Shown here piece after piece: positions 3,640 through 11,125 of a stretch of 64,000 nucleotides of DNA. The DNA comes from Methanotrichaceae archaeon (GTDB taxonomy: Archaea; Halobacteriota; Methanosarcinia; Methanotrichales; Methanotrichaceae). The stretch spans positions 1 through 64,000 of the forward strand of contig JABLXE010000006.1 in the NCBI GenBank assembly GCA_013178225.1, read 5' to 3'. The translations under genes and the position numbers were made by a program. The notes under the pieces were generated by a model, which searched no databases, was not told where the DNA came from, and worked only from the letters and a program-made list of their open reading frames with translations. Numbering within the stretch: the stretch's first letter is position 1; every line of letters starts with the position of its first letter.

Positions 3640-3727
3640 CTATTAACCTCTCAAATTCTTGAATCTTGAAAGACACATTGTTAATTTTTTTGGATGATTT
3701 GCTTGTATTTGAGCCCTCTGGCATGCG

Positions 3728-3912
3728 GAACCACAGAGGAACAGAGACACAGAGCGGATTGAGCTTGGGCAATCCCTGAGTGATTGTTCCCCGTGTCTCT
3801 GCGTCTCTGTGGTTGTTGTGGTGAATACGGGAACCGCAGAGGAACGGCAGACGAGAGAGCGAATTATGCTTGGGTAATCTCTAAGCTATTGTTCTCCGTG
3901 TCTCTGTGGTTT
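3728..3912. repeat. Cluster of CACAGAG-family repeats
   Basis: At least four copies in alternating orientation: ACCACAGAGG-ACAGAGACACAGAG at about 3731, GTGTCTCTGCGTCTCTGTGG at about 3792, a decayed ACCGCAGAGG copy at about 3833, and CCGTGTCTCTGTGG at about 3897. Together they form imperfect hairpins. The copies differ by several bases, so they are old. No gene is visible in this stretch. Confidence 0.75.
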
Positions 3913-3960
3913 AGATTCGTTAGTCGCAAATTCGATCATCTGGTCTCACGAAGAATAATC

Positions 3961-4332
3961 ACCACAAAGCCCGCACCAAGGATTGTCGGGTTATCAATAA
4001 CTCAAAGCAACCTTTGCGGGTCCTTTGTGATCTTCGTGCTCTTTGTGGCGTTAAATCCGTAATACGGGACTCCGATCAAACTACTACTACGAGAATAATC
4101 ACCACAAAGCTCACAAAGGGCACAAAGCCCGCACCAAGGATTGTCGGATTATCAATAACTCAAAGCAACCTTTGCGGGTCCTTTGTGATCTTTGTGCTCT
4201 TTGTGGTTTAATCCGTTATACGGGACTCTGATCAAACCGATTTACGACGAGAATAATCACCACAAAGCCCGCACTAAAGATTTGTGGCCTCTCGACTATT
4301 TCGCCCTCTGTGCCTCCGCGCCTCTGTGGTTG
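3961..4332. repeat. Three 9-nt-word palindromic repeat units, the last fused to a CACAGAG copy
   Basis: Units begin with ACCACAAAG at 3961, 4101 and 4259. Each starts with CACAAAGNN words and ends with the inverted CTTTGTGNN words, about 100 bp later, around a core resembling GTCGGGTTATCAATAACTC. The third unit breaks off after its left arm and continues into a CACAGAG-type copy (CCTCTGTGCCTCCGCGCCTCTGTGG, about 4304-4328), so the two families are physically joined. Confidence 0.8.
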
Positions 4333-4379
4333 TTTTTTTAGCGTATGCGGGAACTGCAGAGGAGTTTTGCTATTTTGGC

Positions 4380-4680
4380 GGGCCCGACCGGAGTATTATG
4401 GTAATAATATATTTCTCGATTGCAGCTTGGTCAATCAGAGGGCCATCTTCTCCAGCTAACGCTAGAGTTCCATATCCGGTATCCTCTTATCATCGCCAAT
4501 CGGCGTCCGTGCGGACGGCCTCCTCAATTCAGATTCCGGTGGCGGCCTGATCTCTGAAAAAGGCTGATATTCTTGCCCCTGGGCGGTCTTTGAGGCCCCC
4601 AGTCCTCCAGGCACCTCATTCATCTCGAAGTTCTTAAATGTTTTTCTAATCCCTGGCATCCGTCAGCCCATGATGAATTA
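4380..4680. other. Gene-less spacer with a relic also found at 17.2 kb
   Basis: No intact gene. On the minus strand, about 4466-4545 keeps a short coding-like tail (SELRRP...DDKRIPDMEL-stop). Its DNA resembles the relic at 17152-17270: both contain TCTGAATTGA and GATGATAAGAGG followed by a related ending. The gene of origin is not recognised. The spacer interrupts the palindromic array. Confidence 0.35.
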
Positions 4681-4683
4681 ATC

Positions 4684-5990
4684 ACCACAAAGCTCACAAA
4701 GGGCACAAAGCCCGCGCCAAAGGGCTGTCGGGTCTTCACGAACTCGAATCAACCTTTGCGGTCCTTTGTGGTCTTTGTGCCCTTTGTGGTTAAATTCCGT
4801 TATACAGGAGTCCAATCAAACCGATCTACGACGAAATAATAAACCACAAAGCTCACAAAGGGCATAAAGCCCGCACCAAGATCTGTTGGGTCTTCACGAA
4901 CTGGATTAACCTTTGCGGGTCCTTTGTGGTCTTTGTGCTCTTTGTGGTTGAATTCCGTTATACCGGAGTCCAATCAAACCCATCTACGACGAAATAATGA
5001 ACCACAAAGCTCACAAAGGGCATAGAGCCCGCACCAAGATCTGTTGGGTCTTCACGAACTGGATTAACCTTTGCGGGTCCTTTGTGGTCTTTGTGCTCTT
5101 TGTGGTTGAATTCCGTTATACAGGAGTCCAATCAAACCCATCTACGACGAAATAATGAACCACAAAGCTCACAAAGGGCACAAAGCCCGCACCAAGGTCT
5201 GTTGGGTCTTCAAGAACTGGATTAACCTTTGCGGGTCCTTTGTGGTCTTTGTGCTCTTTGTGGTTAAATTCCGTTATACAGGAGTCCAATCAAACCGATC
5301 TACGACGAAATAATAAACCACAAAGCACACAAAGCGCACAAAGGCCTCACTAAGGTTTGTCGGTTCTCAGGAACTCGAATCGACCTTGCGGGTCCTTTGT
5401 GGTCTTGGTGTTCTTTGTGGTTAAAAACCGTCTATTGTAATCCTATCAAACCGAAACCGAATAGCGACGAATAATCACCACAAAGCACACAAAGCGCACA
5501 AAGGCCTCACTAAGGTTTGTCGGGTCTTCACGAACTCGAATCGACCTTTGCGGGTCCTTTGTGGTCTTGGTGTTCTTTGTGGTTAAAAACCGTCTATTTT
5601 AATCCTATCAAACCGAAACCGAATAGCGACGAATAATCACCACAAAGCACACAAAGCGCACAAAGGCCTCACTAAGGTTTGTCGGGTCTTCACGAACTCG
5701 AATCAACCTTTGCGGGTCCTTTGTGGTCTTGGTGTTCTTTGTGGTTAAAAACCGTCTATTGTAATCCCGTCAAACCGAAACCGAATAGCGACGAATAATC
5801 ACCACAAAGCCCACAAAGGCCTCACTAAGGTTTGTCGGGTCTTCACGAACTCGAATCAACCTTTGCGGGTCCTTTGTGATCTTTGTGCCCTTTGTGGTTT
5901 AATTCCGTTTGTCACAAATTCAATCATCCGATTTGCGGCAAAGGAACCACCACAAAGCTCGCACTAAGAAATTGATGCCTCTCAAGTATT
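4684..5990. repeat. Tandem array of nine ~160-bp palindromic units made of the CACAAAGNN word
   Basis: Units start (ACCACAAAG) at 4684, 4843, 5001, 5159, 5317, 5477, 5639, 5801 and 5949, a spacing of 158-162 bp except the last (148). Each has a left arm of two to three CACAAAGNN words, a core (TTGTCGGGTCTTCACGAAC), and a right arm of CTTTGTGNN words that is the inverse of the left arm. Then comes a 45-50-bp linker containing CCGTTATACAGGAG in the earlier units or AACCGTCTATT in the later ones. Arms of about 30 nt could pair. The linker and core fall into two sequence groups (4684-5159 and 5317-5801), suggesting two rounds of amplification. The last unit lacks its right arm and runs into a CACAGAG copy. 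Confidence 0.9.
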
Positions 5991-5991
5991 T

Positions 5992-6100
5992 CGCCCTCTG
6001 TGTCTCTGCGCCTCTGTGGTGAGTAAGCAACGGATAGTATATTATATCTTAAGCTTGCGAGCCTTCACTACAGAGACGCAGATGCACGGAGCGATTTGTT
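5992..6100. repeat. CACAGAG-family inverted pair
   Basis: CCTCTGTGTCTCTGCGCC at about 5995-6012, completed by TCTGTGGTGAG, is followed about 60 bp on by the inverted copy ACTACAGAGACGCAGATGCAC. They bracket an AT-rich ATATTATATC segment, giving a possible long hairpin between the repeat array and the PIN gene's 3' end. Confidence 0.65.
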
Positions 6101-6127: not shown

Positions 6128-6562
6128 TTAAAGCGATGAGCCTACTATCTCAAGGAACTCTACTCTTTTAAAATCCGAATCGAATGTCGCTATGCATCTT
6201 ATCCCGTAGTGATGACATGTGGCGGCAATAATAGCATCATTAGGCATCAGCCTATATTTTGTTATGATATCTGAAATCATCTCTATATTTTTTGGTGGAT
6301 GAATTATATTTATGTTGAATTTATCTATGAGGGTTCTTAGATTGCTCATGTATTTTCTGGCATCATCCTTCATATCCTTCTTTATGTCCTCTCGCAGGCG
6401 AAATCCTCTCGATCCGTAAATGAGCGACAAACCGATGTAGATCGATTCTTCAAGGACGCTTAGGGTTATAACCGGCTCTAAGGCGTCATGCAAGATCTCC
6501 TTTGCCCTATCTGTATCCTCGGCTTGTATTAAGAATGAAACTATTATATTAGCATCTATCAA
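6128..6562 (-). CDS. PIN-domain RNase toxin, VapC type
   Basis: 144 residues that begin directly with the PIN strand MIDANIIVSFL (first catalytic Asp at residue 3). The conserved Glu lies in LEESIYIGL, and the C-terminal acidic pair in PNDAIIAATC and IATFDSDFKRV. PIN proteins of VapC type cleave RNA, usually tRNA or rRNA. The gene starts on an ATGA overlap with the DUF104 antitoxin gene upstream (6559-6562), so the two form one module. All catalytic acids are present and the frame is clean: this is one of two intact PIN modules in an otherwise decayed neighbourhood. Confidence 0.88.
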   Translation of the reverse strand: MIDANIIVSFLIQAEDTDRAKEILHDALEPVITLSVLEESIYIGLSLIYGSRGFRLREDIKKDMKDDARKYMSNLRTLIDKFNINIIHPPKNIEMISDIITKYRLMPNDAIIAATCHHYGIRCIATFDSDFKRVEFLEIVGSSL

Positions 6563-6768
6563 TACTGACAGGCTTCATCCTCCAGCTCCAGGATCTCTTT
6601 TGTTGTTACAACACGATTCAATTTTATGGCCCCCGCATATTTATCTAAGATCTCGTTTCTTTCGTCTTTAAGAATAACTTTTGCCTTAGCTCCTTCTTGC
6701 AAATGTACATTTTCAATAGGTTTGAATACTCCATTTTTGAAAATGCAATCAATTATTTTAGCTGGCAT
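6559..6768 (-). CDS. AF2212-like (DUF104) antitoxin
   Basis: 69 residues of the DUF104/AF2212-like family: the opening IDCIFKNGVFKPIENVHLQE is the typical beta-hairpin (xxGVFKPLxxVxLxEG), followed by a short helical tail that would block a PIN partner. In this family the small protein is the antitoxin and represses its own operon. It overlaps the PIN gene by 4 bp (ATGA). Another intact DUF104 copy is at 8186-8365, a further one at 11973-12158, and fragments lie at about 6861 and 11424. Confidence 0.88.
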   Translation of the reverse strand: MPAKIIDCIFKNGVFKPIENVHLQEGAKAKVILKDERNEILDKYAGAIKLNRVVTTKEILELEDEACQY

Positions 6769-6860
6769 ATCGTTCCTGGTCCTTTAATTGAATTTTATTT
6801 ATCAAGGTATTAATTTAAACCTATAAAAATCTATTCCCTGGCAGCAATAATCAAGAGCCG

Positions 6861-6925
6861 GCTCTTTAGCATCAGGCTCTCCAAACTCATCAATCAAGAA
6901 GATCGCTGAAGCGTTTCATGATAGT
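6861..6925 (-). pseudogene. DUF104 antitoxin 3'-end fragment
   Basis: Read on the minus strand this gives RFSDLLD, then after a frame change DEFGEPDAKE. That matches RFSDLLDELGEPEAKE at the C-terminus of the intact antitoxin at 8186-8365. The 5' part of the gene is missing and the fragment abuts the UPF0175/DUF3368 relic. Confidence 0.6.
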
Positions 6926-6934
6926 AGATGCAGA

Positions 6935-7001
6935 TATTGGAGCGGAGATGTATTAGCAGATAGCTTCAGGTAAGGCTTGCCTCCGCCTTCAGCTCCTCTT
7001 C
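6935..7001 (-). pseudogene. Junction relic: UPF0175 3' end plus DUF3368 toxin 5' end
   Basis: On the minus strand 7001-6966 encodes EEELKAEASLT-stop, the same tail as the intact UPF0175 gene (LTEEELKAEASLA). It then runs into PEAIC and, one base shifted, NTSPLQYLH, the N-terminus of the DUF3368 toxin at 10321. The order and overlap of the two genes are preserved, so this is a piece of a second UPF0175/DUF3368 operon joined to a hicA 5' fragment at about 7000. Confidence 0.7.
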
Positions 7002-7099
7002 ATAACGAGATGGCTGCCATGCTGTCTGATAGTTTGAAAGCCGATGCTCGTAAGAGCCTTCACGACCTTAGCAGCATCAACCGGCCTCAGCCTCGACAA
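6989..7099 (-). pseudogene. hicA: HicA toxin, 5' fragment
   Basis: From the TTG at 7099 the frame reads MSRLRPVDAAKVVKAL, then TSIGFQTIRQHGSHLVMK, the classic HicA N-terminal half with the catalytic GSH histidine. It stops after 36 codons because the sequence passes into the tail of a UPF0175 gene. The C-terminal half (normally a further 30-40 residues) is gone. Its start overlaps the 3' end of the hicB relic, as in intact operons of this type. Confidence 0.75.
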
Positions 7100-7292
7100 C
7101 CTGAACACCTATAAACTCGGTAATCTCTATATCCTCTTCAGCCTCTAGATACGCCTCTATCGCTTCTTTTGCTCTCTCCAGCAGATCATCGAGGCTTTTT
7201 GCCTGAGTGTGACACCCTGGAAGTGCAGGGACGGTTGCCACATATTAGCCATCTTCATCTTTTTCTACTAAAACGCTGAACTTCTTTTTCAT
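7077..7292 (-). pseudogene. hicB: HicB antitoxin with one nonsense codon
   Basis: 72 codons in one frame: MKKKFSVLVEKDEDG, then a TAA at 7247-7245 where the family has tyrosine, then YVATVPALPGCHTQAKS and an acidic helical end. A single base change explains the break (TAC or TAT to TAA). The downstream hicA is also truncated, so the module is dead. HicB proteins bind HicA and repress the operon. Confidence 0.82.
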
Positions 7293-7368
7293 GCATATAC
7301 CTTTAATCCTGGAAATTAAACCTTGCTCGAAAAATGCGAAGTGGCACCCGGCCGTGCGACGAAAAATC

Positions 7369-7760
7369 ACCACAAAGTTCACGAAGGGCACAAAGCCCCA
7401 CCAAAGGAGTGTCGGGTTATCAAGAACTCGAAGCAACCTTTGCGAGTCCTTTGTGATCTTTGTGCCCTTTGTGGTTAAAAACCGTCTATTGTAATCCCAT
7501 CAAACCGAAACCGAATAGCGACGAATTATCACCACAAAGCACACAAAGGCCTCACTAAGGTTTGTCGGGTCTTCAAGAACTCGAATCAACCTTTGCGGGT
7601 CCTTTGTGATCTTCGTGCTCTTTGTGGTTTAATTCCGTTAGTCACAAATTCAATCATCCGATTTGCGGCAAAGGAACCACCCATAAAGCTCGCACTAAGA
7701 AATTGATGGCCTCTCAAGTATTTCGCCCTCTGTGTCTCTGCGCCTCTGTGGTTTCGCCGC
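7369..7760. repeat. Two 9-nt-word palindromic units followed by a CACAGAG copy
   Basis: ACCACAAAG starts at 7369 and 7531, a 162-bp spacing as in the main array. The linkers (AACCGTCTATTGTAATCC) match the later group of the array. The block ends, as at 5.99 kb and 11.08 kb, in CCTCTGTGTCTCTGCGCC at about 7728-7745. This is a dispersed piece of the same array. Confidence 0.85.
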
Positions 7761-7859
7761 AACACACGCCAGGCATAATATGAACTCTCACGGATGGTCC
7801 GACTGGCAGTACTCCACTTCTTCCGGAGATCTCTTAGATGTTTCTTAAGTCTCGACCTC

Positions 7860-7928
7860 TCAGGGAATGGATGAAAAGCCTCTCCTGATAAGTTCCTTTC
7901 GGGAAACTGGAACGAGCCTATTCGACAA
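7860..7928 (-). pseudogene. hicA: HicA toxin, N-terminal relic
   Basis: From TTG at 7928, overlapping the end of hicB, the frame gives MSNRLVPVSRKELIRR and then leaves the family, stopping at 7860. The same 16 residues begin the longer hicA copy at 12430 (MSNRLVPISRKELIRRLSKLG), so about 40 codons were deleted here. The antitoxin gene upstream is intact, making it an orphan. Confidence 0.75.
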
Positions 7929-8175
7929 CAGCTATCGGCTCCACAGACACGTCTATGGTACGACCACTTATCGGCGGTATGGGGTGACCCAGCCGCAATC
8001 CTAGAACGATCCATCCTTCGATAACTGAGATAAGCTCCTTGCGGCATTCTTCGAAGGTCTTGCCTGTGGCCCACACGCCAGGGAGACCTTGAATATGGGC
8101 ATAATACGGCTCTGGATCATCGATTATTTCGTATTCTGCATGCTCTAAAGCTGCCTGGATGTATTCTGCGAACAT
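7918..8175 (-). CDS. hicB: HicB-family antitoxin (orphan), copy b
   Basis: 85 residues: the partial RNase-H-like HicB fold with IQGLPGVWATGKTFEEC, then KELISVIEGWIVLGL and a C-terminal strand. I chose ATG 8175, preceded by AGGATCTTGATC; a TTG two codons upstream is possible. It follows the DUF104 gene by 10 bp and overlaps the deleted hicA. A near-identical but frameshifted copy lies at 12420-12680, so this block was duplicated within the region. With its toxin gone it may survive as a repressor or a passive relic. Confidence 0.82.
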   Translation of the reverse strand: MFAEYIQAALEHAEYEIIDDPEPYYAHIQGLPGVWATGKTFEECRKELISVIEGWIVLGLRLGHPIPPISGRTIDVSVEPIAVVE

Positions 8176-8185
8176 GATCAAGATC

Positions 8186-8365
8186 CTATATACCTCGAAG
8201 TCTCAGAATTAAATCGATATCTTCTTTGGCTTCAGGTTCTCCTAACTCATCAAGCAGATCGCTGAAGCGTCTCCTGATGATAAGTCGGACTTCAGCTTTT
8301 TCTGGCAAGTTCGGATCCTTCAATGGCTTGAATACTCTATCTTCATAGATGGCTTTAATTTGCAT
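8186..8365 (-). CDS. AF2212-like (DUF104) antitoxin, 59 aa
   Basis: A short clean frame from ATG 8365: MQIKAIYEDRVFKPLKD opens with the DUF104 hairpin, followed by the charged strand PEKAEVRLIIRRR and the helix FSDLLDELGEPEAKED, ending in ILRLRGI. No PIN gene follows; hicB starts 10 bp downstream instead. Either its toxin was lost or the operon was rearranged. Fragments of the same gene occur at about 6861 (3' end) and 11424 (5' end). Confidence 0.75.
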   Translation of the reverse strand: MQIKAIYEDRVFKPLKDPNLPEKAEVRLIIRRRFSDLLDELGEPEAKEDIDLILRLRGI

Positions 8366-8519
8366 GCATAATCCCTGGACAATGAACCTTTATCTGACCT
8401 TTTCGCAATAAAGCTTCCCATCCAGGTTTCTCCTTCAGAATACGAGATGATTGAAAAGGTGGCAGGTTAATATGGGCCGAGTTCAACCATCCATTCAAGA
8501 GCTGCCATGCGTCCATGCG

Positions 8520-8650
8520 TCATCTCCCGAGCTCCATGAAGTGCAGAGCGCTTGTTCCCTTCGCCGTGGGCTTGTACCTGCGAACCTTCTCCTCAGTCCC
8601 CTCCGCCAGCCAGTTCCTGGTGACCAGCTTCAGATAAGCCACCGAGGAAC
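8520..8650 (-). pseudogene. Possible winged-helix protein, C-terminal relic
   Basis: On the minus strand an open stretch reads VAYLKLVTRNWLAEGTEEK, VRRYKPTAKGTSAL, HFMELGR-stop, which resembles the recognition-wing end of small winged-helix regulators (RYxxTxKG). No upstream part or start is found. The surrounding 8366-8715 holds nothing else I can support. Confidence 0.3.
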
Positions 8651-8715
8651 AGGGAAGCGAGACAGGTTCTGAGCCCCCGGGTCTACCCATGCATAACAGG
8701 AAAGTACGAAAAATC

Positions 8716-8947
8716 CTATAATCGGTGCCAGGCTTTCGCTTCTTCCTGAACCTTTATTATAATCTCATCCAGAGGATTGGCTTTCATCAAGGCGGAAGCA
8801 TTTATGATCTCGATCCCCATGACCTACCTCTCCTCGTTCTCCATAGTCGATTAAGATATTGGCCTCAACTTCGATTGTATCGGCCACCTTTCCGTCAATG
8901 AACTTCAGATACATAATGTCATACTTGGGGTCGTATGAGATTCTCAT
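8716..8947 (-). pseudogene. DUF2283 protein with a frameshift
   Basis: The N-terminal half, MRISYDPKYDIMYLKF, then GKVADTIEVEANILIDYG, is a standard DUF2283 domain. At about 8825 the frame slips. The rest of the family (MGIEIINASALMKANP, then LDEIIIKVQEEAKAW) continues one base over, to a stop at 8716. The total of 232 nt is one more than a multiple of three. DUF2283 genes commonly accompany toxin-antitoxin genes; their role is not settled. Confidence 0.8.
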
Positions 8948-8982
8948 TATTTTCTCCTATAATCAAATAGCTCTATAACGCA

Positions 8983-9196
8983 TTACGCCGTTGAAAGCCA
9001 CTCTTCGCGAGAAACCCCACCTTCTCGAAGAATCTCGGAAAGCAAATGCACGCCGATATCGCGTTTATGTGGATTTGGTATACGAAACGAAATTATCCGC
9101 TCGAACCATGTAATCATGATCCGATCCTGGAAAAGGGCCTTCAAAATCTATCTTCTTCAATCGTCTAATTAGCTCAGGTCGTGAGATCGGTGTCAA
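8983..9196 (-). pseudogene. hicA: HicA toxin with a frameshift
   Basis: From TTG 9196: LTPISRPELIRRLKKIDFEG, then PFPGSDHDYMVR, the HicA fold with its histidine. After about residue 36 the frame is lost, and the correct continuation (RIISFRIPNPHKRDIG, then VHLLSEILREGGVSREEW) lies one base over, ending at 8983. A length of 214 nt confirms a single indel. The antitoxin gene hicB at 9199 is intact. Confidence 0.82.
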
Positions 9197-9198
9197 GC

Positions 9199-9459
9199 CT
9201 ACTCAACTATACTCACCGGTTCGGTTGATGCTGTTATCGTATGGCCACCAATAGATGGTATCGACCGGCCCATCCTCAACCTGAGAGCTATCCAGCCTTC
9301 TATGACTGAAATAAGCTCTTTACGAGCCTCCTCGACGGTCTCGCCCGTTGCCCATGCACCTGGCAGATCGGGAACCGAGACAAAGATAGGTTCTTCTTCG
9401 TCTTCAAGGGTTTTATAGACTGCCCTTTCTAAAGCAGCCTCAATATACTCGGCAAACAT
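9199..9459 (-). CDS. hicB: HicB-family antitoxin (orphan), copy c
   Basis: 86 residues with the HicB core IFVSVPDLPGAWATGETVEE, then ARKELISVIEGWIALRLRMG, and the C-terminal strand HTITASTEPVSIVE. Diverged from copy b but the same length and layout. It sits directly before the frameshifted hicA. It is expected to bind HicA and autoregulate; here it probably has no working partner. Confidence 0.82.
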   Translation of the reverse strand: MFAEYIEAALERAVYKTLEDEEEPIFVSVPDLPGAWATGETVEEARKELISVIEGWIALRLRMGRSIPSIGGHTITASTEPVSIVE

Positions 9460-9827
9460 ATCATTGATCTTCTACACCTTAATAGGATTTAAAATCTGAT
9501 TATTCTGAATCTAATAAAGAGCATTTGGCTCCCACATGCCGTGTTCTTTTTTTCTCAGCACCATTCCTTCGAGCATCTATGCCAGCACATTCTTTCGCCA
9601 CTGCAGATATGGGTGGATTTTGGCATCGTTGTCCGAATCTTGGGGGGGGCGTAAAGGACGTTCACCACCACAGACACGAGAGGGATTTAACCTCTTTCAG
9701 GGAACCCTACCGCTAATTTTTTTGTCTCTATGGTTTAGCAGTAACACACGCCAGTATATGATGGAACCTCATCGATGGGCCCGACTTCTTATACTAGTAA
9801 TATTATATTTCTCCACAGGCCCTTTAT
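9460..9827. repeat. Spacer with a decayed CACAGAG copy
   Basis: No gene. A degraded pair, ACCACAGACACGAG at about 9669 and TGTCTCTATGGTTTAG at about 9722, is followed by AACACACGCCAGTATATGATGG. The latter also follows the CACAGAG copy at 7.75 kb (AACACACGCCAGGCATAATATG), so the mobile unit of this family extends past the hairpin by at least 50 bp. A run of nine G lies near 9641. Confidence 0.5.
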
Positions 9828-10321
9828 CTAATCCTGGGATGATTCTCCTGCCAGTTTCAGCACAACCGCTCGTGTCGGTTCTGCAAGGCGAAATCCCAGG
9901 TCCTGCAGCTTATTAAGAGAAGGCTTCACTGCCGTTATGTGGCCGGCTCGTTTGGCATCTAGGAGCAATCCCAATGTACCTTTGATAGGTATTCCTCTGG
10001 CAATTGCCACTCTGCTTGCCAGCCCGTCGTCCAGAAGCGCAATGCTCCCTGGCATTTCAAGAGCTAGCATCAGCACCTGGGATTCGCCCTGCCCGAGATC
10101 TGTAATCAACGATACTGCCCTGGCGCTGATGGTGCTCGTATCCTGATCCAGCTTAGATTCTCCAGTTTTGGCAGGTCTCATCCTTTTGCCATGCCGGCGT
10201 CCAGTTCAATCTGAACTGATGGAGGTACGACAATAGACCCAGCAAGAGCGGGAAGAATGCTCAATTGGCCTATCTGATGCAAATACTGCAATGGTGATGT
10301 GTTGCAGATAACTTCAGGCAA
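9828..10321 (-). pseudogene. DUF3368 PIN-like toxin, broken by a stop and a frameshift
   Basis: From TTG 10321, overlapping the UPF0175 stop, the frame reads PEVICNTSPLQYLHQIG, then LSILPALAGSIVVPPSVQ, with the NTSPL strand of DUF3368. An in-frame TGA at about 10180 interrupts it (MAKG-stop-DLPKLENLSWIRI). Near 10130 the frame shifts again into the well-conserved end (GESQVLMLALE, ALLDDGLASRVA, GTLGLLLDAKRAG). The 494-nt span is not a multiple of three. The ATG-initiated frame 9828-10181 alone lacks the N-terminal PIN strand and its catalytic acid. Confidence 0.82.
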
Positions 10322-10565
10322 GGCTTGCCTCCGCCTTCAGCTCTTCTTCCGTTAATCTAAATGTATCAACGCCATAATTCGCAAGGCTTGCTAAAAAGAG
10401 CGTCCGGGGTATTCCTGCTAGTCTTGCAGCCGCGCCAGATGACAGTTTTCCCAGTTCAAAAAGCTTTACGGCTGCAGCAATCCGGAGCTCCTTTCCAAGC
10501 TCGTCTGGAGACATTTTCAGGGCCAGCAGGGCATCATCTGGAACTTGCAGCACAATCTCGCTCAT
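10314..10565 (-). CDS. UPF0175 family antitoxin
   Basis: 83 residues from ATG 10565: MSEIVLQVPDDALLALKM, then ELRIAAAVKLFELGKLSSG, AARLAGIPRTLFLASLANYG and an acidic tail. This is the UPF0175 layout with its helix-turn-helix (GKLSSGAAARLAGIPRTLF). These proteins are antitoxins for DUF3368 PIN-like toxins, and the partner overlaps its stop codon here but is broken. The open frame extends upstream to 10763, but that part belongs to an epimerase relic, so I do not use that start. Confidence 0.82.
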   Translation of the reverse strand: MSEIVLQVPDDALLALKMSPDELGKELRIAAAVKLFELGKLSSGAAARLAGIPRTLFLASLANYGVDTFRLTEEELKAEASLA

Positions 10566-10629
10566 ATGGCAGTAATTCTTTATTGATAGTAATTGTATCT
10601 TTTCATCACTTTGAGAAAGCACAATTAAT

Positions 10630-10729
10630 CCTGATCGATTGTAGATGACCGTGACCTCAGGTTCTTTAATAGCTGACCAGCCAAGTTTGAGCCAATGAAG
10701 CCCGAGCCGTCGGTAACAACGACCTTCAT
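10630..10729 (-). pseudogene. NAD-dependent epimerase, N-terminal relic
   Basis: From ATG 10729 the frame gives MKVVVTDGSGFIGSNLAGQL, the Rossmann start of an extended-SDR epimerase with one glycine changed to Asp. One base over it continues as EPEVTVIYNRSG. Only about 30 codons remain, directly upstream of the UPF0175 gene. It is not a copy of the intact epimerase at 2737-3639, whose start reads MKALVTGGAGFIGSNLVEAL. Confidence 0.65.
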
Positions 10730-10869
10730 TGAAATGGTCCACTCCTGAATTTGAAATTCGCAAAAGTTATTAGAATGGCTCTTTTGCGCGTCCTTCTTGA
10801 TCTTGGTGTTCTTGTGGCTTGAATTCGTTAGCCTCAGATTCGATCATCCGGCCTTACGGCGAAGTAATC

Positions 10870-11125
10870 ACCACAAAGCACACAAAGCACACAAAGCGCA
10901 CAAAGGCCTCACTAAGGTTTGTCGGGTCTTCACGAACTCGAAACAACCTTTGCGGGTCCTTTGTGATCTTTGTGCTCTTTGTGGTTAAAAACCGTCTATT
11001 GTAATCCTATCAAACCGAAACCGATTTGCGACGAATATACCACAAAGCCCGCACTAGAGATTTGTGGCCTCTCAAGTATTTCGCCCTCTGTGTCTCTGCG
11101 CCCCTGTTGTTGTTTTTTAGCGTAT
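10870..11125. repeat. 9-nt-word palindromic unit plus truncated unit and CACAGAG copy
   Basis: A full unit starts at 10870 with four consecutive CACAAAGNN words, one more than elsewhere, which suggests slippage of the 9-nt word. A second starts at 11039 (169 bp on), lacks its right arm and continues into CCTCTGTGTCTCTGCGCC at about 11089. The same hybrid end occurs at 4259, 5949 and 7.7 kb. Confidence 0.82.

Follow-up and report, generated by a model that had tools for sequence, protein, structure and literature searches.

The window array and its hairpins

The window, a stretch of 64,000 nucleotides from a contig (C25) of a Methanotrichaceae archaeon (genome G000), contains direct repeats of 148–162 nt at a spacing of 158–162 nt in positions 3935–5931 (repeat search of the window). 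The arms of the repeated units are trains of the word CACAAAGNN and of its inverse, with one to four words per arm. With a train counted as at least two words C[AG]CN[AG]AG, the window contained 34 trains, whereas 20 mononucleotide shuffles gave 0.8 on average and never more than 4. The repeat array described by the first-pass annotation was therefore confirmed, about one train being expected. The features are as follows:

3727..3815, + strand: separate hairpin of the 8-nt CACAGAG type, immediately left of the array (MFE -44.2, z -5.4)
3961..4056, + strand: unit 1, hairpin, left arm reduced to one full word (sequence, alignment A3)
4093..4214, + strand: unit 2, hairpin, three words per arm (sequence, alignment)
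4255..4335, + strand: hybrid unit, left half 9-nt, right half 8-nt CTCTGTG (repeat family D5; folding z -0.4)
4676..4797, + strand: unit 3, opens the head-to-tail run (MFE -53.4, z -7.1; repeats, alignment)
4835..4955, + strand: unit 4, linker group 1 (repeats, alignment)
4993..5113, + strand: unit 5, linker group 1 (repeats, alignment)
5151..5271, + strand: unit 6, linker group 1 (MFE -56.3, z -7.8; repeats, alignment)
5309..5428, + strand: unit 7, linker group 2 (repeats, alignment)
5469..5590, + strand: unit 8, linker group 2 (repeats, alignment)
5631..5752, + strand: unit 9, linker group 2 (MFE -50.0, z -6.8; repeats, alignment)
5793..5905, + strand: unit 10, left arm of two words (repeats, alignment)
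5945..6025, + strand: hybrid unit ending the run, left half 9-nt, right half 8-nt (repeat family D5; z -1.9)
7361..7482, + strand: unit 11, beyond the span first described (repeats, alignment)
7523..7635, + strand: unit 12, beyond the span first described (repeats, alignment)
10862..10992, + strand: unit 13, longest left arm, four words CACAAAG and CACTAAG (z -6.3)

Nine head-to-tail repeats start at 4686, 4845, 5003, 5161, 5319, 5479, 5641, 5803 and 5951, the final step being shorter, in agreement with the nine units at 158–162 bp spacing and the short last step reported at first. The twelve units described in 2 kb are present; two of them are hybrids, and further units lie outside that span, as the array extends to 7361–7640, to 10862–10997 and to C24:1–2800, on another contig of the same genome. 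The array linkers formed two groups (units at 4676–5271 and units at 5309–5752), which matches the two sub-lineages that had been proposed, and the variation in word number between arms was borne out. The linker upstream of unit 2, CTACTACTACGAGAATAATCACC, is similar to an element flank in Methanothrix (locus L117).

Each unit had been described as an imperfect hairpin. This holds for the 9-nt type: the four units folded (4676, 5151, 5631 and 10862) formed long hairpins, with MFE values of -49 to -56 kcal/mol and z values of -6.3 to -7.8. It does not hold for the hybrids at 4255–4335 and 5945–6025, which folded no better than shuffles (z -0.4 and -1.9). A multi-stem or structural RNA, one of the roles first suggested for the array, would call for compensatory changes between arms; in the alignment of 18 units a single double change was observed, below the shuffles, and this role was not supported. 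Because compensatory changes are lacking within the array, its copies probably represent decaying products, as opposed to a functional RNA. For two other suggested roles, a protein-binding array and a termination block, nothing was found that speaks in favour or against. The search of Rfam gave no credible match to the array.

A GxxExxY gene on a second contig, and dispersed MITEs

In searches with a 318-bp query and with a two-word pattern, the 9-nt type was confined in this genome to the first 2.8 kb of C24 and to C25, the contig of the window, and the 8-nt CACAGAG type was scattered over several contigs. Contig C24 starts within a unit, which indicates that the assembly broke there. A 148-aa ORF between array units on C24 (C24:234–680, minus strand) is GxxExxY (TIGR04256, 154 bits). 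The window's own array is devoid of a GxxExxY gene, and the link between array and gene passes via C24.

The dispersed 8-nt copies in G000 sit within a different element, a MITE some 190 bp long (ends GGCTCTTCGCT.../...AGCGAGGAGCC), which bears an inverted 8-nt word hairpin mid-element and is flanked by 8-bp duplications (ACAATTCT, ATCAAATA, GATCTTAT and TGAAATAT); some of their spread is thus hitch-hiking. Copies are found at C2:142.9k (L045), C18:12.4k (L047), C27:2.7k (L061) and on C22 (L050, L052), and a truncated copy lies in the window, from 2344. The ends of this MITE presumably resemble ISL3 ends; an ISL3 transposase was rejected as its parent, none being present in G000. If the units were simply MITEs derived from an insertion sequence of the DDE type (ends GGCTCTTCGC, 8-bp duplication), with the words as part of the MITE, one would expect what is seen for the dispersed copies of G000 and of its relative G015, which lie within such MITEs with 8-bp duplications, and for the solitary units of G015 beside or between such MITEs. 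However, those ends are found neither on the units of the array nor on the copies of C24 nor on the GxxExxY units of bacteria, GxxExxY units are without the duplication, and the absence of the ISL3 transposase from G000 also argues against this origin, which we regard as very unlikely. A DDE-type MITE explains secondary dispersal only.

At two loci (L260, G015 C1:996k, and L261), a 9-nt unit is sandwiched by two such MITEs; at L260 the MITE–unit–MITE composite is flanked by AAAAGAAA, as if it had moved as one.

The GxxExxY protein

The single ORF of the GxxExxY unit matches TIGR04256 and PF13366 (PDDEXK_3), and no known transposase (DDE, HUH, Ser or Tyr) was found in the unit. In an alignment of 55 sequences, the motif G-x-G-x-x-E-x-x-Y, D64, E74-x-K76, Q88 and Y92 were kept; D64, K76 and Q88 were invariant, and E74 and Y92 were at least 90% conserved. 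The AlphaFold2 model (pLDDT 95) had its best fold matches in Cas4, lambda exonuclease and LHK-Exo; the top matches were 4r5q, 6m9k, 4ic1 and 3syy, with weak E-values, the best being that of 4r5q (Cas4, E 1.8e-3, TM 0.50). The PDB sequence search retrieved no relative of GxxExxY. Both the modelled fold and the D-ExK-QxxxY residues agree with a Cas4/lambda-exonuclease-like PD-(D/E)xK enzyme, and GxxExxY is predicted to be a minimal nuclease of this type. In one paper, a gene with the label GxxExxY from one pipeline was given the name cas4 by another (PMC8934634). One Cas4 is a structure-dependent endonuclease that cuts cruciform and branched DNA (PMC12538437), and GxxExxY may cut such DNA in the same manner.

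Inverted word arms flank GxxExxY in many phyla

A scan with the GxxExxY alignment over contigs of one genome per species yielded 80 loci with flanks, from Methanothrix, Planctomycetota, Acidobacteria, Chloroflexi, Verrucomicrobia, Bacteroidetes, Ignavibacteria, several proteobacterial classes and others; the suspicion that the element is very widely spread was thus well founded. In an unbiased count of 7-mers within 400 bp of GxxExxY (near) and more than 1.5 kb away (far), CACAGAG/CTCTGTG ranked first with a 14.7-fold enrichment in the 80-locus set (190 near versus 179 far, 47 loci), and the other top 7-mers near the gene were shifted or altered forms of the CACAGAG train. Train density was 3.75/kb in the 250 bp upstream and 5.63/kb in the 250 bp downstream of the gene, compared with 0.085 and 0.147/kb (upstream and downstream) at more than 3 kb from it. 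Forward words upstream together with inverse words downstream of GxxExxY were observed in 50 of the 80 loci.

The full unit measures about 480 bp (424–755) and consists of a word train, a GxxExxY ORF of about 125 aa and an inverted word train, so that the ORF lies in the loop of a hairpin. The left arm is made of two to four tandem copies of a 7–9 nt word, often beginning TTCACCACAGAG or a variant, and the right arm has these words in inverted form and ends GGTGAA. The unit ends TTCACC.../...GGTGAA are common, and the match between left and right is down to background level some 5 nt beyond the first word. This arrangement of left arm, GxxExxY ORF and right arm is the complete form of the unit observed in many bacterial phyla and in Methanothrix, C24 carrying a more rearranged version.

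Association of arms with the gene was also observed independently of the word: complementary arms (score of at least 13) were present in 71 of 103 loci, whereas all 84 windows displaced 1 kb outward scored lower. Clear arms were missing from about 30% of GxxExxY loci in this test. At loci without CRCNRAG the arms were mostly made of a different tandem word, such as CACGGATTA, CACAGACNN, GACAGGATN or GGAGACG. Two other gene families served as controls. For S23, likewise a family of small genes scattered over the same genomes, a train stood beside the gene in 1 of 30 loci, and S23 genes were rejected as the repeat partner. For Y1_Tnp genes, any train was found in 1 of 20 loci, far from the gene.

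This last control bears on the proposal that the repeats are REP/REPIN-type palindromes moved by a REP-associated tyrosine (Y1) transposase, with GxxExxY as a bystander. The general look is the same, with short palindromic units, doublets and clusters (REPINs, PMC3116915), and Y1_Tnp genes were present in seven of the eight genomes tested. However, these genes lack the trains that border GxxExxY at the majority of its loci, and the Y1 genes of G000 lie on C1, C5 and C23, away from the arrays. A Y1 (RAYT) partner is therefore largely refuted, and we judge this proposal extremely unlikely.

A second sample comprised 198 genomes from the phylum to which Pelotalea belongs. Of these, 53 contained a strict three-word pattern (reversed control, 0) and 70 contained TIGR04256. 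When the seed genome was left out (n = 197), GxxExxY was present in 37 of 52 pattern-positive and in 32 of 145 pattern-negative genomes (odds ratio 8.7, p = 5e-10, a p value that ignores relatedness); the remaining 15 pattern-positive genomes were devoid of GxxExxY. Among the 30 best GxxExxY genes of this sample, 18 had CRCNRAG trains within 300 bp and 15 had the full layout.

Two further interpretations of the unit were discarded. First, cargo of phages or plasmids: relatives were found in one viral contig and in 8 of 72,556 plasmids, and the strict four-word pattern had no match in viral contigs. Second, a conserved peptide encoded by the left arm: the arm was open in frame in 34 of 50 loci, yet the frames were split 13, 11 and 10.

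The arms covary

In 34 GxxExxY loci with arms in register, 11 of 20 pairs changed on both sides. The covariation score was 0.284, compared with 0.142 after shuffling (0 of 500 shuffles), and the signal was lost when the partner was slid by one to three columns. The match of arms within loci was 614/680, compared with at most 567 in 10,000 reshuffles between loci. The loci are partly related by descent, so that the shuffles overstate significance; the slide control preserves relatedness. As these loci were selected for trains on both sides, only the variable letters of the word are informative, and not the invariant ones. The word is not conserved and the pairing of the arms is. Template switching in quasi-palindromes is documented (PMC7202029, PMC3820800) and could also keep the arms alike; covariation is therefore no proof of selection for pairing.

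Units lie mostly between co-directional genes

GxxExxY was co-directional with its upstream neighbour in 60 of 72 cases and with its downstream neighbour in 57 of 70 (60:12 and 57:13), neighbour direction being that of the longest flanking frame; in the second sample the counts were 22 of 28 upstream and 24 of 28 downstream. The element was separated from the upstream stop codon by a median of 10 bp. Units occupied the trpE/trpG junction at six loci, which may share descent in part, and carA/carB at three. Further junctions separate methylmalonyl-CoA mutase subunits, nuoL/nuoM, nuoF/nuoG, carboxylase beta/alpha, MoxR/DUF58, 2-oxoglutarate dehydrogenase E1/E2, aconitase-like large/small and xanthine-dehydrogenase-like small/large subunits, and, outside complexes, EF-G/HIT and LytB/squalene cyclase (trp and car names from reading translated ends, other names from Pfam). 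Our impression is that junctions between subunit genes are preferred.

This setting is relevant to two other explanations. In the first, the arms act as RNA: within the operon mRNA they would form a stem with GxxExxY as its loop, and a double-strand RNase would cleave this stem. Important operons could thereby tolerate the cassette, which would spread by another route; similar cutting at the RNA level has been proposed for the NEMIS repeats of Neisseria, a precedent in its favour (PMC2229807). The strong co-directionality, the operon sites between subunit genes and the covarying arms of about 20–30 bp are in agreement with it, as is the mismatch count on the gene strand, where G-U slightly outnumbers A-C (35 to 20, p = 0.058). 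However, this excess is not significant, no compensatory change was observed within the window array, and co-directionality is equally expected if the gene needs read-through transcription. A role of the arms in RNA is thus somewhat doubtful; it is compatible with the mobile-element explanation given below and not exclusive of it.

In the second, GxxExxY is a free-standing homing endonuclease gene placed in conserved operon junctions, and the repeats are by-products of cut-site repair. The reuse of the same junctions (trpE/trpG, carA/carB and MoxR/DUF58), the PD-(D/E)xK fold and the lack of target duplication would fit such a gene. Homing genes, however, are not characterised by inverted, covarying arms on their two borders or by gene-less copies with both arms, and the junctions are very diverse; we consider homing improbable.

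Gene-less copies and their distribution

In genomes of the second sample, pattern hits far outnumbered GxxExxY genes (for example, 72 versus 3 in genome G289 and 58 versus 1 in G280). In G239, of the Desulfobacterota, gene-less copies of 180–217 bp have outer arms and an inner hairpin (loop TGAGAGG) in common with the gene-bearing copy. At the site preceding a GDP-mannose dehydratase gene, G369 carries a full unit (L376) and its sister G239 a gene-less copy that retains the last GxxExxY codons (L330). At this one site, in a Desulfobacterota pair and not in Methanothrix, internal deletion gave a gene-less derivative with the ends of the full unit. At another site, a gene-less copy is present in G239 and absent from G369 and G365.

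Presence and absence at orthologous sites was observed at S328 and S330 in relatives of G239 and at trpE/trpG of Methylophilaceae, where G097 alone has the unit and the two genes are joined in more than 20 of 60 genomes searched. As one genome per species was used, the evidence between species consists of presence/absence and deletion, and not of observed movement. The gene-less copies with a gene remnant, the dispersed copies in relatives and the presence/absence at orthologous sites speak for the non-autonomous mobile unit that had been listed among the possible roles. In 49 GxxExxY loci, no clear direct repeat exceeded that of reshuffled pairs, and no consistent target sequence was found.

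Inner hairpins next to the outer arms, with similar loops (TGAGAGG, GAGAGG and GGGAGAC) and varying stems, were seen at several Desulfobacterota loci (L331, L327–L330 in G239, L339 in G359, and L170), and possibly constitute a second recognition structure. At L146 (9700–10500), about 60 bp of the start of carB is repeated beyond the GxxExxY element, as would result from a copying of target DNA.

Methanothrix relatives and the origin of the array

The hairpin pattern was found in 6 of 61 genomes (that of the window and 60 relatives) and the reversed control in none; PF13366 was present in 11 of the 61. GxxExxY lies within a cluster of units in G015 and G018 and adjoins word trains in G003 and G024. 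In Methanothrix locus L117 and in G018, a unit is located between a glycosyltransferase (GT2) gene and wecB, and the L117 flank TACTACTACGAA...TTCACC is similar to the window linker at 4081–4103. Fragments of the 5' end of wecB lie beside units in G000 (C24:2476–2607) and in G015 (at least five pieces), the latter also with repeated segments. The history of the array is likely one of breakage and tandem duplication at the GT2/wecB site. In Methanothrix, the glycosyltransferase/wecB junction would probably be the starting site, which broke up in the window's genome to give the arrays.

Several truncated 5' copies of wecB adjoin hairpin units at L259 (G015 C1:743800–762500) and L075 (2476–2607 and 4867–5102), and blocks of small genes are duplicated between these copies.

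A mobile-element-like unit and known systems

We favour, as rather probable, the explanation that the window array arose when gene-less, non-autonomous copies of a small GxxExxY unit, which resembles a mobile element, were amplified locally. The nuclease would act on the hairpin or cruciform made by the arms, and since the word varies while pairing is kept, recognition may be by structure more than by sequence. Breaks and template switches resulting from this action could spread, delete and tandemly amplify the arms. The first interpretation of the array was supported as to a mobile unit and its wide spread and not supported as to a structural RNA, and it had missed the GxxExxY partner on C24.

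A bolder version, which we advance only tentatively and hold to be somewhat short of evenly likely, is that of an undescribed selfish element of about 480 bp with ends recognised by shape: drifting inverted arms of tandem words would form a hairpin or cruciform, a miniature Cas4-like nuclease would move, delete and multiply this structure inside bacterial and archaeal operons, and the CACAGAG-type repeats of environmental genomes would be its gene-less offspring.

The GxxExxY unit resembles several known systems in part. Like REPIN/RAYT, it combines short palindromes, gene-less copies more numerous than a single-gene partner, clusters and a spread across bacteria, but its enzyme is Cas4/lambda-exonuclease-like and not Y1, its arms are tandem words of varying sequence, its gene occupies the loop that the arms enclose, and units are found inside operons. 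With NEMIS/Correia repeats and other bacterial MITEs it shares paired terminal inverted repeats, gene-less copies of 100–200 bp near genes and likely co-transcription; unlike them, it has a candidate full-length form with its own gene, no target duplication was found, and it occurs in many phyla. The intervening sequences of 23S rRNA with an S23 four-helix-bundle ORF also carry an ORF looped out from a long stem, whereas the GxxExxY unit is in protein-gene operons and encodes a different protein, and S23 genes of the same genomes are without word arms. Solo-Cas4/MGE-Cas4 and the lambda exonuclease family resemble GxxExxY in predicted fold and D-ExK-QxxxY residues, but GxxExxY is about half their size (~120 aa), forms its own sequence family and is tied to inverted word arms. 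As to the classical marks of insertion sequences and MITEs, terminal inverted repeats were found, and a target-site duplication and a known transposase were not. In its manner of working the unit is comparable to REPINs with their RAYT, or to a MITE and the parent element, yet it fails the defining tests of both.

In the open-access literature (preprints and most subscription journals being outside the search), no description of the word trains was found; TIGR04256, PDDEXK_3, PF13366 and GxxExxY have passing mentions there, with nothing on the family itself. GxxExxY is present in about a third of the sampled genomes of one phylum, and its link to paired word arms gives it a concrete, testable role; a class of scattered palindromic repeats gains a likely source in the GxxExxY unit. 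If it is true that the enzyme reads structure in place of sequence, a tiny element would here have a novel means of keeping drifting ends recognisable. The frequent sites between subunit genes of important enzymes raise the question of host tolerance.

Small genes and probable translated arms

Between units at 6128–10763 of the window, small genes look by eye like parts of toxin–antitoxin systems (PIN-like, HicB-like); seven such small ORFs of the window and C24 had no match in NCBIfam. Word trains are also in frame in spurious ORFs of the window (for example 7586–8074), which yield peptides such as NHRGAETQR and HKEHKDHKG, and annotated proteins ending in such peptides are probably translated arms.
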